Assembly: GCA_958296055.1 (NCBI GenBank)
Contig: CATQHS010000001.1
Coordinates: 1,460,277-1,524,276 of the forward strand
Reading direction: 5' to 3'
Length of the DNA: 64,000 bases
From: an uncultured Acidimicrobiales bacterium
GTDB taxonomy: Bacteria > Actinomycetota > Acidimicrobiia > Acidimicrobiales > Aldehydirespiratoraceae
Position 1 is the first letter of the stretch, and each line of letters opens with the position of its first letter. A model generated the notes under the pieces. The model saw nothing but the letters and a program-made list of their open reading frames with translations, had not been told where the DNA came from and did not search any database. Made by a program: the position numbers and the translations under genes. This document shows, piece by piece, positions 22,778-40,108 of this stretch.

Positions 22778-23991
22778 ATGTCGTACTGGCCTTGGTGGTC
22801 GCTGGCGAAGAGGATCTGCGTGCCGTCGGGCGACCAGACCCCGACGGAGTCGTCGGTGTTGACGTCGGTCAGTTGGCGCACGCCGGAGCCGTCGGCTCGC
22901 ATCACGTAGAGGTCGAACCGGCCGTCGCCGCTGTTGCTGGTGAAGAGAATGTGCTCGCCGTCGGGTGACCAGGCCGGGTCCCAGACGTTGGCGTTCGGGT
23001 CGGTCAGCGGTTCGACGGTCGGGCGCCCGTCGGGGCCGTCGTCGTCGAGGCGGATGACGCTGGCCGGGTAGGGGGCGTCGGCGGCGGTGGTGAGGACGGC
23101 CCGCGGATGGGCGGTGAAGACGGCCCGGGCGCCGTCTGGCGACCAGTCCGGGCCGATGTCGGCAGTGTCGTTCTCGGTGAGCTGGCGCTCGTTGGATCCG
23201 TCGGCGTTCACCATGAACAGCTCGAGTTCGCCGTCGCGGTCGCTGGTGAAGAGGACGCGCGACCCGTCCGGCGACCAAACCGGGTCGAAATTGTCGGTGC
23301 CGCTCTCGGTGAGCCGGCGCACATCGGTGCCGTCGGGTTGCATCGAATAGAGGCCGTAGCCGCCGTCGCGGTCGCTGGTGAAGAGGATGCGCTCACCGGT
23401 GGGCGACCAGACCGGGTCGCTTTCGTAGGCCTCGTCGCGGGTCAGTCGGCGCACGTCCGATCCGTCGGCGGCCATCACGAAGATCTCGCGGTCGCCGTCG
23501 GGGTTGCCGGTGAAGAGGATGTGCTCGCCGTCGGGCGAGAATCCCTCCGCCGCGACCCAGTCGATGGCGTCGTCGTCGGTCAGTCGGTGCACGTCCGATC
23601 CGTCGGCGGCCATCACGAAGACATCGGTGTCGCCCGCCTCGGCACCGTGCCCCCGACCGCTGGTGAAGAGAATCTGCGTGCCGTCCGGCGACCAGATCGG
23701 GCCGAAGTCGTCGGCCGGATCATCGGTCAGCCGCACCATGCTCGACCCAGCACCTTGTGGTGACGGCTCGATCTCGACCGTGTCCTCCGGCGGCGGAGGC
23801 CCATCCGTTGGTGCCAGCACGGGCTCGGGTTCCGGTTGCGGTTCGGGTTCTGCTTCTTCGGCCGGTGACGAGGGTGTCGGGACCGTGGAATCGGGCCCAC
23901 CGTCTCCGCAGCCTTGAACGGCGATCGCCGCCAGCGCCCAAGCCGCCGCGCCCAGCCCGGACAGAAGGATTCTCGGCAGCGGCATTCTCAT
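22759..23991 (-). CDS. TolB-like PD40 beta-propeller lipoprotein
   Basis: About 410 residues. A signal peptide ends in the lipobox AVQGC, so the protein is probably anchored outside the cell membrane. An acidic Pro/Glu-rich linker follows (to ~residue 85). Seven PD40/WD40-like blades then repeat the pattern WSPDGxxILFTSDRDG. The DNA repeats the same pattern about every 130-140 bp, a recent-looking internal amplification. Such propellers bind proteins or polysaccharides; the partner is unknown. ATG 23991 is preferred because it puts the signal peptide at the N-terminus; a GTG at 24012 is also possible. Confidence 0.82.
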   Translation of the reverse strand: MRMPLPRILLSGLGAAAWALAAIAVQGCGDGGPDSTVPTPSSPAEEAEPEPQPEPEPVLAPTDGPPPPEDTVEIEPSPQGAGSSMVRLTDDPADDFGPIWSPDGTQILFTSGRGHGAEAGDTDVFVMAADGSDVHRLTDDDAIDWVAAEGFSPDGEHILFTGNPDGDREIFVMAADGSDVRRLTRDEAYESDPVWSPTGERILFTSDRDGGYGLYSMQPDGTDVRRLTESGTDNFDPVWSPDGSRVLFTSDRDGELELFMVNADGSNERQLTENDTADIGPDWSPDGARAVFTAHPRAVLTTAADAPYPASVIRLDDDGPDGRPTVEPLTDPNANVWDPAWSPDGEHILFTSNSGDGRFDLYVMRADGSGVRQLTDVNTDDSVGVWSPDGTQILFASDHQGQYDIYIVGI

Positions 23992-34519: not shown

Positions 34520-35386
34520 GTGCCGGCGGCGGCGTTCGAGCTGGAGCGACCGGAATCGGTCTCCGAGGCGCTGGACGCGCTGGCCGCCGAGCCCGACGCC
34601 CGGGTGATGGCCGGAGGACAGTCGCTGGTCCCGCTGCTCACCCTGGGCTTGGCCGTCCCCCCGGTGGTGGTCAGCCTCGACCGCTGCGGAGGCCTCGCCG
34701 ACATCGAGGCGGGGCCCGACGAGGTGGCGGTCGGGGCCATGGTCACCACCCGTCGGGTGGAGCTCGACGCCGGCCTCGGTGCCCGGCTCCGGCTGCTGGC
34801 CGAGGCCGCGGCCTCGGTGGGTTCGCCCCACGTCCGCAACTTCGGGACGCTGGCCGGCAACCTCTGCCACGCCGACCCCGGCAGCGACCTGATCCCGGCC
34901 GCCCTGTGCTTGGAGGCCGAGCTGGAGGTTCGATCCGCCCATGGCCGCCGCCGGGTCGGCGTCGGCGAGATGATCGACGGTCCCTTCTCCACCGCGCTGC
35001 GCCCCGGCGAGATGGCGGTGGCGGTGCGGTTCCCGGTGCCGGATCCGTCTTGGCGCTGCGGCTACCGCAAGCTGGTCCGCCGGGCCGGCGACCTGGCCAT
35101 GGCCTGCGCCGCGGTGATGGTGAGGGTGGAGGACGGGGCGATGGCCGAGGCCCGGGTGGCGTTGGGCGGGCCGCTGCGCCGGGCGGTGCGGGTCCGGGGC
35201 CTGGAGGCCGATCTCGAAGGGGTGGCCGCGGCCGACGCGGCCGGGACAGTTTTGGGCGGGACCTGGATGGATGACCTGGCCGGCGACCTGCTGCCCGACG
35301 CCACCCTGCCCGTCGACTACCTGACGGCCATGCTGCCCCGGTTCACCGCCGCGGCGGTGGCCGAGACCCTCGGAGCCGGCCCGTGA
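34520..35386 (+). CDS. Molybdenum hydroxylase FAD subunit (CoxM/XdhB-like)
   Basis: 288 residues of the FAD-binding CO dehydrogenase/xanthine dehydrogenase medium-subunit family. The FAD motifs AGGQSLVP (near 32) and TLAGNLCHADPGSD (near 110) are intact. It transfers electrons between the iron-sulfur subunit and the acceptor. GTG start at 34520, 14 bp after the flavin-reductase-like gene. It is followed by small and large subunit genes in the usual M-S-L order. Confidence 0.9.
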   Translation: MPAAAFELERPESVSEALDALAAEPDARVMAGGQSLVPLLTLGLAVPPVVVSLDRCGGLADIEAGPDEVAVGAMVTTRRVELDAGLGARLRLLAEAAASVGSPHVRNFGTLAGNLCHADPGSDLIPAALCLEAELEVRSAHGRRRVGVGEMIDGPFSTALRPGEMAVAVRFPVPDPSWRCGYRKLVRRAGDLAMACAAVMVRVEDGAMAEARVALGGPLRRAVRVRGLEADLEGVAAADAAGTVLGGTWMDDLAGDLLPDATLPVDYLTAMLPRFTAAAVAETLGAGP

Positions 35387-35420
35387 CCGCCGCGACCGCC
35401 GGGCCAGCGGAGACCGGGCC

Positions 35421-35918
35421 GTGACCGCGGTCTCAGCCAACGGCGGGAACCGGCCCGCGGCCTCCATCTCCGTCACCGTGTCGGTGAACGGGCGGCGGCG
35501 GGTGATCGACTGCTCGCCCGGCGACACCCTCCTAGAGGCGCTGCGAAGCCCCTTGGGCTTGACCGGCACCAAGTCCGGTTGCGAGATCGGCTACTGCGGA
35601 GCGTGCACGGTGCTGGTGGACGGGGCCGCCGCCCATTCATGCTGTCTGCTGGCCGCCACCATGGACGGGCGCGAGGTCACCACCATCGAGGGGATCGGCA
35701 CCGCCGAGGGCCTTGATCCGGTGCAGGCCGCGTTCTTGGAGACGGGCGCAGTCCAGTGCGGCTACTGCACACCCGGATTCGTGGTCTCGGTGAAGGCCTT
35801 GCTGGCCGAGAACCCGGCCCCGAGCGAGGCCGAGATCCGCCGGTACTTAACCGGCAACATCTGCCGGTGCAGCGGGTTCGCGGCCATCGTCCGAGCCGTC
35901 GCCGCCGTGACCCGATGA
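35421..35918 (+). CDS. Molybdenum hydroxylase [2Fe-2S] subunit (CoxS/XdhC-like)
   Basis: 165 residues carrying both clusters of the family. The plant-type ferredoxin cluster uses CEIGYCGACTV plus a downstream Cys in SCC, and the helical-domain cluster uses CGYCTPG and CRCSG. It shuttles electrons from the molybdenum site to FAD. A ~12-residue extra N-terminus is included from GTG 35421. Its stop TGA is overlapped by an ATG at 35915, the first of three ATGA junctions in the tandem repeat that follows. Confidence 0.92.
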   Translation: MTAVSANGGNRPAASISVTVSVNGRRRVIDCSPGDTLLEALRSPLGLTGTKSGCEIGYCGACTVLVDGAAAHSCCLLAATMDGREVTTIEGIGTAEGLDPVQAAFLETGAVQCGYCTPGFVVSVKALLAENPAPSEAEIRRYLTGNICRCSGFAAIVRAVAAVTR

Positions 35919-35953
35919 AACCGGCGATTCGACCCCTCGCCGTGGCCCGATGA
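35915..35953 (+). CDS. 12-codon mini-ORF 1, coupled between CoxS and mini-ORF 2
   Basis: ATG at 35915 overlaps the CoxS stop (ATGA). The frame encodes MKPAIRPLAVAR and stops at 35951-35953, itself overlapped by the next ATG. It is a by-product of the 35-bp tandem repeat. Whether the peptide matters is unknown; its translation could carry ribosomes from CoxS to CoxL by termination-reinitiation. Confidence 0.4.
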   Translation: MKPAIRPLAVAR

Positions 35954-35988
35954 AACCGACGATCCGACCCCTCGCCGTGGCCCGATGA
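35950..35988 (+). CDS. 12-codon mini-ORF 2, coupled to CoxL start
   Basis: ATG at 35950 overlaps mini-ORF 1's stop. It encodes MKPTIRPLAVAR, one residue different from mini-ORF 1, and stops at 35986-35988, overlapped by the ATG of the large subunit at 35985. It completes an unbroken chain of three ATGA overlaps. Confidence 0.4.
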   Translation: MKPTIRPLAVAR

Positions 35989-38288
35989 AACCGGCGGTTG
36001 AGCCTGATCGGTCCGCGGTGGGGCGGGCCGTGGCCCGGGTGGACGGACGGGCCAAGGTCACCGGGGCGGCCTCCTATCTGGCCGACATGGCGGTCGAGAA
36101 CATGGCCCACGCCGCCGCGGTGCGCTCGCCGCATCCCCGGGCCCGGGTCACCGGGATCGACGCCTCGGCCGTGCAGGGGTGGCCCGGGGTGCTGGCTGTG
36201 CTCACTCCCGAAGACACGGCCAGCCTGCCCTCGGTGCGCATATTCGCTGACTCCCCGCCGGTGGCCCGGATACTCACCGCCACCCCCCAGTTCGCGGGCG
36301 ACGCGGTGGCCGCGGTGGTGGCCGAGACCGAGGCGCTGGCCCGGCGGGCCGCGGCCGAGGTGGAGGTTGATTACGAGCCCCTGCCCGCGGTGCTCACCGC
36401 GGCCGAGGCCCTGGCTGCCGAAGTCGAGCTGCACCCCGAGGCCCCGCAGAACCGGGCCGGGCCGCCGGTGAACATCGCCCGAGGCGACCCCGATGCCGCC
36501 CTGGCCGGGTGCTGGCGCGTGTTCCGCGACACCTACGCCACCCAGCGTCAGTGCGCCCAGACCATCGAGCCCCTGGCCTGCGTGTGCCACTGGCGCGACG
36601 ACCGCCTCGACGTGTGGACCCACCTCGACTCAATGTTCCACTTCCGCGACGCCCTGGCCGAGGCCCTGGCCGTCGATCCCGAGACGGTGCGTATCCATCC
36701 CCCCGAGGCGCTGGGGGCCACCTTCGGGCTCAAGAACAGCCTGCTGGCCTCGCTGGAGCCGCTGGCCGCGGTGGCCTCGCGCCGGACGGGGCGGCCGGTG
36801 AAGCTGGCCCTGACGCCGGAGGAGTCGATGGCGGCCACCGTGACCCGCCACCCGGCCCGCATCGACTTGGCCACCGGGATGAACGCCGACGGCACCATCG
36901 CGGCCCGCACCTGCGACGTGGTGCTCGACTCCGGCGCCTACGGCTGGGGCTATGTGGTGGCGCTGAGCATGGCCGGCAAGTGGGTCTCGCTGTACCGCAC
37001 CGAGCACCTGCGGTTCTCGGCCGTCTCCGTCTACACCAACCATGTGCCCGGAGGGGCCTACCGGTCGGTGGGCACGGCCCAGATCCACTTCGCCATGGAG
37101 TCCCAGCTCGACGAGATCGCCCGGTCGCTGGGCATCGGCCCGGTGGAGCTGCGCCGCCGGAACATGATCGGCGTGGGCGACCCGCTCCCCTTCGGCACCC
37201 CCATCCGCTCCTTCGGTGCCGAGTCCTGCCTGGATGAGGGGGCAGCCGCCTTCGGCTGGCCAACAGAGCCCCCCAGCTCCGCCCGCCCCGTGGCCGGTCC
37301 CGGCCCCGATGCGGCCCGAGGCCCGGACATGGCCCGCAGCCCGGTCCGTCCGCCGGTTGGGCCCATCGGCGGCACCATTGGCCGGCGCCGGGGGGTGGGC
37401 ATGGCGGTGGGGATGCACCACGCCGGGCTGACCGGGCTCACCCCCATGCCGGAGGCGTCGCGCTGTCGGGCCGAGCTGCAAGCCGACGGCACGGCCGAGA
37501 TCGCGGTGGGGGTGGTGGACAAGGGCCAGGGCTCGCTCACCACCCTCACGCTGGTGGCCGCCGACGAGCTGGGCCTGCCGCCGGAGCGGGTTCGGGTCAC
37601 CAACCGGGGGACCGCGGCCGTGCCCTTCGACCCCTCCGGCGCCGAGGCCAGCCGCACCACTTACGTCATGGGCCGGGCGGTGGCCGACGGGGCCCGTCGC
37701 CTGCGGGAGGCGATCCGGGACCGGTTCGGGACCGACCCGGCCGAGCTGACCCTCCAGCGGCTGGCGGCCTGGGACCCGGCCGCCGAGCCGGTTAGGGCCG
37801 ACGGTCACTTCGAGCCCGCCGACCGGGACCCGCTCCCGGTAGTGGGCGCCCATTTCTGCGAGGTGGAGGTGGACTGCGCCACCGGCGCCGTGCGGGTGCT
37901 GCGCTACGTGGCCGCCCAAGACGTGGGTCGAGTCATCAACCCCCTGGGCTGCGCGGGCCAGATGGAGGGCGGCATCCACCACGGGATCGGCTACGCCCTC
38001 ACCGAAGAGCTGGTCTACGACGACGGCCTGCCCCTCAACCCCGACTTCATGGGCTACAAGGTGCTGATGGCCTCCGACATGCCCGCCATCGAGGCCATCC
38101 CGGTGGAGGACCCCGACCCCGACGGCGGCCCGTTCGGGGCCAAGGGGGTGGGCACACCGGTCATCCCGGCCATAGCCCCGGCGGTGGCCAACGCGGTGCG
38201 CGACGCCATCGGAGTCCGCCTCACCGAGCTACCCCTGACCCCGCCGAGGGTGCTGGCCGCCCTGATGTCCGCCACCGACCCGGCGTAG
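35985..38288 (+). CDS. Molybdenum hydroxylase large subunit (CoxL/XdhA-like), atypical active site
   Basis: 767 residues of the xanthine dehydrogenase/CO dehydrogenase molybdopterin-binding family, colinear with it throughout. The first cofactor loop, usually GGGFG, reads GATFG (244-248). The loop corresponding to CODH AYRxxxR reads GAYRSVGT (near 358), so it is not a form I CO dehydrogenase. The C-terminal loop that normally carries the catalytic Glu (KGxGE) reads KGVGT, with Thr724 in its place. A poorly conserved Pro/Arg insertion lies near 427-465. ATG 35985 overlaps the preceding mini-ORF stop. Either chemistry differs from the family's base-assisted hydroxylation or the subunit is inactive; the sequence cannot decide. 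Confidence 0.87.
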   Translation: MKPAVEPDRSAVGRAVARVDGRAKVTGAASYLADMAVENMAHAAAVRSPHPRARVTGIDASAVQGWPGVLAVLTPEDTASLPSVRIFADSPPVARILTATPQFAGDAVAAVVAETEALARRAAAEVEVDYEPLPAVLTAAEALAAEVELHPEAPQNRAGPPVNIARGDPDAALAGCWRVFRDTYATQRQCAQTIEPLACVCHWRDDRLDVWTHLDSMFHFRDALAEALAVDPETVRIHPPEALGATFGLKNSLLASLEPLAAVASRRTGRPVKLALTPEESMAATVTRHPARIDLATGMNADGTIAARTCDVVLDSGAYGWGYVVALSMAGKWVSLYRTEHLRFSAVSVYTNHVPGGAYRSVGTAQIHFAMESQLDEIARSLGIGPVELRRRNMIGVGDPLPFGTPIRSFGAESCLDEGAAAFGWPTEPPSSARPVAGPGPDAARGPDMARSPVRPPVGPIGGTIGRRRGVGMAVGMHHAGLTGLTPMPEASRCRAELQADGTAEIAVGVVDKGQGSLTTLTLVAADELGLPPERVRVTNRGTAAVPFDPSGAEASRTTYVMGRAVADGARRLREAIRDRFGTDPAELTLQRLAAWDPAAEPVRADGHFEPADRDPLPVVGAHFCEVEVDCATGAVRVLRYVAAQDVGRVINPLGCAGQMEGGIHHGIGYALTEELVYDDGLPLNPDFMGYKVLMASDMPAIEAIPVEDPDPDGGPFGAKGVGTPVIPAIAPAVANAVRDAIGVRLTELPLTPPRVLAALMSATDPA

Positions 38289-38613
38289 GCAAAGACCCCG
38301 GCTGGCGGGTCTCGTCCTCTTTGGGCGGTTGGTGTGCCCGGCCAGCGAGTTCGGCCATGGCTCTCGCTTTGTCCGGCCGGCGGGTCTCGTCTTCTTTGGG
38401 CGGTTGCTTTGTCCGGCCGGCGGGTCTCGTCTTCTTTGGGCGGTTGCTGTGTCCGGCCGGCGGGTCCTGTCACGGGGGCGGTCGTCGCCGCAAGCGGCGC
38501 CGACGCTAACCCCCGTGCCACCCCCCGGCCTGGCGCATTGGCGTCCGGGGCCTGGTTCACTCCGATTACCTCGGTTCACTCTCGGTTACTCCGGTTATCT
38601 CGGTTCGCTCTGG
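38289..38613. other. Non-coding spacer between convergent genes, repeat-rich
   Basis: About 325 bp between the CoxL stop and the end of the HNH gene. The left half holds a 40-bp minisatellite. The right half (about 38560-38610) has short imperfect GGTTCACTC/GGTTACTCC/GGTTATCTC direct repeats. No supported gene was found here; the open frames across it are created by the repeats. Confidence 0.7.
38366..38470. repeat. 40-bp tandem repeat (minisatellite), about 2.6 exact copies
   Basis: Identical 40-bp units at 38366-38405 and 38406-38445 start with GCTTTGTCCGGCCGGCGGGT. A partial third copy starts at 38446 and a diverged copy precedes them at about 38296-38335. No unique spacers separate the units, so it is not a CRISPR array. 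Confidence 0.92.
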
Positions 38614-40008
38614 TCAGGTGGTGAAGAGGGCGGGTGTTCTTGGCCGGGGCGGGTCGGGGCCGCTGCCCGGGTGACCTGACCCGTAGCGGTTTGGGGTGGG
38701 GCGGGTTCGGTCTCGGGTTGGCTGCGGGCCGCGGCTTGGTCGCGTCCGTTGAGGTTTGTGGGTGTCTTGGTCGTGGGGGTGTTGGGGGTTGGCGGGGTTG
38801 GGCGGGGCCGAGGGGTTGGGGGGTTGGAGGGCGGGTTTGCCGTTTTGGTGGGTGATTTGCCAGTGGTGGTCATGGATGTTGTGGTGGCAGCGCCAACAGA
38901 CCAGCACGAGATTTTCGATGTCGGTGCGGCGGGATTGGGCGAAAGGCACGATGTGGTGGACTTGGCAGCGGCTGGGCTCGGCGCCGCAGCCGACACAGCC
39001 GCCGTCTCGGGCGATGAGCATTCGCCACTGGGCGGTGGTGGCGGTGCGCACCCTGGCCCCGTGGTGCAGCGGCTTGCCTTCGCTGAAGAGAATGCCGGTG
39101 AGGTGGGCGTCGCAGGCGATGCGCTGGAGCACCGTCGGGGGCACGGGCCCGGTACCGGGAATTTCGCAGCGCCCGGCGTGGTCGGCACCGGTGAGCACGC
39201 CGATGTCGGCCACCACTATGACTTCGGCTTTGGGCCGCCCGCTGGTGCCGCCGCGGCCCTTCGCCTCTCCTGAGGTCAAGAGATCCAAGGCGTCGGCTCG
39301 GAGCTGGTCCCAGGACCTCGGCTCTTCACCGCTGTCCGGGCCGCCGGGGCCGGGGCCGGTGCGGGCTGATTGTTGGTCTTGGCGGCGGAGTTCTTCGGCG
39401 GTGCCCTCCAAGCGAGAGCAGATTCGGGTGTCAGTTTCGGGGTCTAGCAGGGCGTCGAGGCGCACCGTGCCGTCTTGTTGTTTCCAGGTTCTCAGGTACC
39501 GACGGCGGCGCTTTTGCAGGTAGTCGTCGTGGCCGTGGTCGGTCTGGTGGCGCTGGGTCCAGGCGCCGGCCTCGCGGGCGAACCGGTCCGGGGGCAGTTC
39601 CTTGGCCATGGCCAACAAATCAGAAGCGGAGTCCACCGTCTCGGGCGCAGTGCGGCGGGCGGCGTCGGCTAGGCGCTCGGCGTTGGCCAGCGGTACCTCC
39701 CCGGCGTCCACCGCGGCGCGCAGCCCGGGCATCTCGTGGAGCGTCTCGGCCGTTCCCAGGCTTCTGCGGGCCTGGGACTTGGATTTGCCGGCCTGGTCGC
39801 GCAGCACGGAGGCCCCGCCGTCGCCGTGGCGCTCCCGCAGAGCGATCAGCCGGGCCGCGTCGGTCTGCAGGGCGGCCACATTGGCTTCCCAGGACCGGCT
39901 GGCCGCGATCAGATCCTTGAGCCGGGCGGTCGACAGCTCCCCGGACCGGGCCGCCTCCAGCAGCCGGGCCAAGTCCTCATCGACGCATTCGACCGTTTCC
40001 GTGAACAT
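38614..40008 (-). CDS. DUF222 HNH endonuclease
   Basis: About 464 residues. The N-terminal two-thirds is the helical DUF222 domain common in actinobacteria. The C-terminal HNH nuclease has CVGCGAEPSRCQVHHIVPF near residue 365 and CWRCHHNIHDHHW near 395, giving two zinc CxxC pairs and the catalytic His pair. The last ~60 residues are Pro/Asn/Thr-rich and disordered. These genes occur in many copies in actinobacteria and often behave like mobile or orphan genes; a role in DNA cleavage is assumed. ATG 40008 is chosen over a GTG at 40041 because typical members begin near this Met. Confidence 0.87.
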   Translation of the reverse strand: MFTETVECVDEDLARLLEAARSGELSTARLKDLIAASRSWEANVAALQTDAARLIALRERHGDGGASVLRDQAGKSKSQARRSLGTAETLHEMPGLRAAVDAGEVPLANAERLADAARRTAPETVDSASDLLAMAKELPPDRFAREAGAWTQRHQTDHGHDDYLQKRRRRYLRTWKQQDGTVRLDALLDPETDTRICSRLEGTAEELRRQDQQSARTGPGPGGPDSGEEPRSWDQLRADALDLLTSGEAKGRGGTSGRPKAEVIVVADIGVLTGADHAGRCEIPGTGPVPPTVLQRIACDAHLTGILFSEGKPLHHGARVRTATTAQWRMLIARDGGCVGCGAEPSRCQVHHIVPFAQSRRTDIENLVLVCWRCHHNIHDHHWQITHQNGKPALQPPNPSAPPNPANPQHPHDQDTHKPQRTRPSRGPQPTRDRTRPTPNRYGSGHPGSGPDPPRPRTPALFTT

Positions 40009-40108
40009 ATGATCACTCTGCAACACGGGTGAGACAATCACACCCTATTACCTGAAATAAGCTAAAAATATTTAGAGCTGCCCCGACGGGCAAGCCCGGT
40101 TCCGCGGC

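Follow-up and report, generated by a model that had tools for sequence, protein, structure and literature searches.

The junction between the genes for the 2Fe-2S (S) and molybdenum-binding (L) subunits of a predicted hydroxylase carries three ATGA stop/start overlaps in series, and it seems probable that this array arose by local tandem duplication of a coupled junction. Selection would act mainly by removing copies that misframe ribosomes, and the copies that survive would be those that keep the two genes coupled. Positions below refer to the window, that is, the whole stretch of 64,000 nucleotides that was analyzed. The features concerned are the following.

34520 to 35386, plus strand: gene for the FAD-binding (M-type) subunit of a xanthine-dehydrogenase-family hydroxylase, predicted by gene call and Pfam FAD_binding_5 and CO_deh_flav_C
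35383 to 35424, plus strand: 12-codon minicistron with a GTG start, VTAATAGPAETGP-stop (initiator read as M), linking the M stop to the S start, with 22/40 positions matching in register
35421 to 35918, plus strand: gene for the 2Fe-2S (S) subunit, GTG start (Pfam Fer2 and Fer2_2; NCBIfam pucE/XdhC-like)
35903 to 35996, plus strand: 35-bp tandem array, 2.7 copies (TRF)
35915 to 35953, plus strand: minicistron 1, MKPAIRPLAVAR-stop, 12 codons; its ATG overlaps the S stop and its stop overlaps the start of minicistron 2
35950 to 35988, plus strand: minicistron 2, MKPTIRPLAVAR-stop, 12 codons; its stop overlaps the L start
35985 to 38288, plus strand: gene for the molybdenum-binding (L) subunit, 767 aa (NF043082; Pfam Ald_Xan_dh_C, MoCoBD_1 and MoCoBD_2)

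By their domain assignments, S and L are predicted to be the Fe-S and Mo subunits, respectively, of a hydroxylase of the xanthine dehydrogenase family. L contains the hammerhead and the two Mo-cofactor domains of this family (Ald_Xan_dh_C, MoCoBD_1 and MoCoBD_2), and among solved structures its best relative is 4-hydroxybenzoyl-CoA reductase. The first-pass annotation had named the two genes CoxS and CoxL, which is incorrect: L scores 442 bits against the XdhA model NF043082, itself below the cutoff, versus 183 bits against the CODH large-chain model TIGR02416, whose cutoff of 991 is not reached, and the AYxCSFR loop of form I CoxL is missing, with GAYRSVG there instead (residue 356). Xanthine dehydrogenase proper was also set aside as an identity for L, since the catalytic glutamate of the KGxGE motif is replaced by threonine (KGVGTP, near residue 723). 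Two orthologues with 56% identity (L035 and L036) both have KG[VL]GTP at the same site, and by this motif they and L form a small subfamily with a predicted altered active site. The upstream neighbors of the operon are ABC transporter genes, encoding an ATPase and a BPD_transp_2 permease by Pfam, presumably of the type serving nucleosides. Downstream, an ORF on the minus strand (38614-40041) has an HNH-type motif (CxxC ... HHIVPF ... CWRCH) that was spotted by eye in the translation. Another Mo-hydroxylase gene is borne by a small third contig (C3, L136) that is nearly identical to the stretch of contig C1 at ~752-755 kb (L131); the junction of this gene, GCGTGACCCGGCCATGAC, occurs twice, 67 bp apart.

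At the S/L junction, the chain of ATGA overlaps, the two 12-codon ORFs and the 35-bp period described in the first-pass annotation are all correct to the base. The ATGs lie at 35915, 35950 and 35985, exactly 35 bp apart, and the first of them overlaps the TGA of S (35916-35918). The distance from the true S stop to the L start is 66 nt and is filled by the two minicistrons, so that the -4 nt NTGA overlap characteristic of coupled gene pairs occurs here three times in series. TRF reports 93% matches in the array, and the two full repeat units differ at 2 of 35 positions. The in-register similarity at the junction is 28/40; all 27,722 mismatched end/start pairs fell below this value, which rules out chance. 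A search of the genome found the array at this locus alone. An assembly artifact was judged unlikely, since the copies carry substitutions and a dependence on frame cannot arise from assembly. Other repeats in the window include a 40-bp tandem array of 4.3 copies right after the L stop (38298-38466, TRF), more short repeats further downstream of that stop (38554-38611) and a 132-bp repeat of 3.1 copies (44 codons; 23132-23538, TRF), apparently a repeated protein domain.

Minicistrons are present at both junctions of the operon, and the one between M and S had gone unmentioned in the first-pass annotation. It is flanked by two GTGA overlaps, at 35383 and 35421, which are 38 bp apart, and the in-register similarity of 22/40 has a p value of ~0.005. 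On this alignment, the M/S minicistron is read as a duplicated junction that is more diverged than the S/L array.

Both the orthologues and the composition of the unit support the origin proposed previously for the S/L array, namely that an ATGA junction was duplicated. In the two orthologous operons S and L share one 8-nt overlap and the repeat is absent; therefore, the array is lineage-specific. These two operons are the only outgroups, as searches of 60 relatives (best 37%) and of the family gave no orthologue exceeding 38% identity, and at 56% identity they are too far away for dating the duplication or testing copy number. At its beginning the repeat unit carries the opening 12 bases of the L gene, and its final 12 bases match the end of the S gene with one mismatch, a match equalled by 3% of random stretches. 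Alignment of the remainder of the unit to the tail of S gave no clear match beyond these last 12 bases. The presence of L-start bases together with an S-end match fits a duplication across the junction, and the unit is plausibly a chimera of the two genes that formed with a deletion.

We also examined short tandem duplications in 1.66 Mb of the same genome (approximately half, window included), with genes called by our own codon-usage caller and gene starts computed. A scan for periods of 20 to 160 with at least 30 of 40 positions matching yielded 323 duplications, compared to 1 in a block-shuffled control. Their periods were mostly 30-80 bp. Duplications within coding sequences numbered 118 per Mb, compared to 11-83 in the genomes used for comparison, and nearly all had periods that were multiples of three. 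A similar adjacent copy was found at 63 of 1328 gene ends versus 36 of 3438 positions within genes, and an upstream duplicate of the start region was present in 35 of 1264 genes versus 1 of 1109 in four relatives plus mycobacterial loci (p 5e-9). The longest chain of overlaps found comprises six GTGA at exact 35-bp steps (C1:1978808-1978986).

This abundance, which extends to intergenic regions, bears on the best-surviving alternative, namely that the array is a neutral product of slippage with no translational effect and that the 35-bp period fell into this frame relation by a one-in-three chance. The RNA folding of the array is likewise unremarkable (z -0.56). The first-pass annotation had also stressed that the repeat steps through the reading frames while keeping perfect overlaps. 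The stepping is real, but it adds no coincidence, because serial perfect overlaps arise automatically whenever the period is 2 mod 3 and the unit contains no internal stop, as the neutral reading would have it. However, neutral slippage does not account for the frames found at copied gene starts genome-wide, and we therefore regard it as unlikely.

In the 1.66 Mb sample, duplications with periods of 0, 1 and 2 mod 3 numbered 137, 1 and 4 within coding sequences; 34, 14 and 11 in intergenic regions; 22, 11 and 17 where only a stop was copied; and 25, 8 and 39 where a start was included. When start and copy were both NTGA, the counts were 1, 2 and 19. The excess of class 2 over class 1 among start-containing duplications is significant (8 vs. 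39, p=3e-6; against intergenic duplications, Fisher p=0.001), holds at four thresholds (28-34 of 40) and persists with stricter gene calls; intergenic and stop-only duplications have no such bias, although the contrast of start-containing with stop-only duplications is by itself marginal (p=0.053). Of the gene starts with a similar NTGA copy in register, 18 have it at a period of 2 mod 3, compared to 2 at each of the other periods; in all 18 the mini-ORF is open. Copies with a period of 0 are under-counted upstream; another 10 are found in frame on the downstream side of called starts, which brings the overall counts to 15, 6 and 24, and the clear signal is therefore the loss of period 1 more than the uniqueness of period 2. 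The gene caller, if anything, favors finding class 1, since in that class the copied TGA is in frame with the gene downstream. In this genome, period 1 is clearly lost, period 2 is the commonest and period 0 is tolerated.

In this genome, triple GTGA matched 10 times at a period of 35, compared to 2 at 34, 0 at 37 and 1 at 38. In the rest of the class, 77 genomes matched at 35 versus 60 at 34, mostly by chance or through microsatellites, and a scan for ATGA chains with no similarity filter returned chiefly chance ORFs. The frame preference is seen in this genome, and the class-wide counts do not establish it beyond. A literature search largely confined to open-access papers found none that describes a frame rule for junctions duplicated in tandem.

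How duplication of a coupled junction would produce this pattern can be outlined as follows. A duplication that spans the junction spares both proteins and would put additional starts in front of the second gene. Only a period of 2 mod 3 ends the short ORF of each copied start exactly on the next start, and a ribosome reinitiating at the first overlap would then pass from minicistron 1 to minicistron 2 and on to the true L start. With a period of 1 mod 3, the copied start would drive ribosomes past the true start out of frame, and such copies would mostly be lost. In published tests, reinitiation was nearly abolished at intergenic distances of ~20-38 nt, while the final 15 nt of the upstream gene were enough for it to occur (PMC10666635). 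By this measure, coupling between the subunits should be lost across 66 nt, whereas minicistrons with -4 nt overlaps could retain coupling, which would thereby outlast a spacer that otherwise breaks it. Ribosomes presumably use the copied starts, and L may depend on coupling; the L start at 35985 has almost no Shine-Dalgarno sequence (-1.5 kcal/mol, weaker than ~91% of starts), which is compatible with such dependence. The ribosome relay suggested in the first-pass annotation thus gains statistical support from the genome-wide frame preference, while the relay itself is a prediction from sequence.

A broader reading is that serial minicistron relays are a standing initiation architecture in this lineage, made by tandem duplication of coupled gene starts. 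The frame filter would keep copies whose period is 2 mod 3, and one or more minicistrons would channel ribosomes into each of dozens of genes, where the added initiation sites might raise output. We regard this as possible but hold it only tentatively. The more specific proposal, an evolved regulatory relay in which the number of minicistrons sets L output or the subunit ratio and is tuned by changes in copy number, appears very improbable. Minicistrons at both junctions of the operon and longer chains elsewhere, such as the chain of six GTGA, are in its favor, but the orthologues manage with no array. Furthermore, a rough comparison of start-containing duplications of period 2 (39) with stop-containing ones (41, or 17+24) shows similar frequencies, so that neutral tolerance suffices and positive selection is not indicated. 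The setting of stoichiometry and the tuning by copy number, both suggested in the first-pass annotation, accordingly find no support. Finally, a mobile repeat of the MIRU type, inserted at start codons together with its own coupled ORF, would share the anatomy of an internal ORF coupled to the next gene at -4 (PMC12548453), but it is hardly credible here, as the unit is confined to one genomic locus, includes the opening bases of the very gene that follows it and is unrelated in sequence to the relay units elsewhere, which match one another in a single pair (L185/L188).

If the frame rule that we attribute to duplication of coupled junctions is true, genomes rich in short tandem duplications amount to a natural reinitiation experiment, in which the surviving duplicated starts would reveal, without reporters, both the real use of copied starts and the cost of a start out of frame. 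The rule would also explain how the spacer between overlapping genes can grow while coupling is kept. For annotation it would serve as a warning that short ORFs chained by ATGA or GTGA may be duplication products and not peptide genes.

Several known systems share parts of this arrangement. Termination-reinitiation pairs with a -4 nt spacing have the ATGA overlap in common with it, and in the first genome sample -4 led all short spacings, with 44 of 276 same-strand pairs. However, the genes here are 66 nt apart and the overlaps are borne by two intervening minicistrons. In bicistronic designs and short leader ORFs, too, the stop of a short ORF overlaps the start of the gene that follows, and short upstream ORFs deliver ribosomes to that gene (PMC12548453); these are engineered or single leader ORFs, whereas the minicistrons here are serial, locally duplicated and plausibly chimeric between two genes. 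The two-codon minigene of axe-txe is likewise a mini-ORF within an operon that acts in cis on the downstream gene, dependent on frame and distance, but it has only two codons, its proposed route is mRNA stability and it forms no tandem chain (PMC8708949). The closest known system is the mycobacterial MIRU. Between senX3 and regX3, MIRUs are repeated in tandem and their stops and starts overlap, in units of 77 and 53 bp, both of which are 2 mod 3. According to a 2025 review, MIRUs insert at start codons, have an ORF inside them that is coupled at -4 nt, and are tolerated with little effect on expression (PMC12548453). The likeness lies in the repeat-internal ORF that overlaps the downstream start by -4 nt, as it does here at 35950 and 35985. 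MIRUs, however, are dispersed and apparently mobile and share one consensus, whereas the array described here is a set of private copies of its own junction at a single locus, and the mechanism behind such arrays in this genome looks like tandem duplication.
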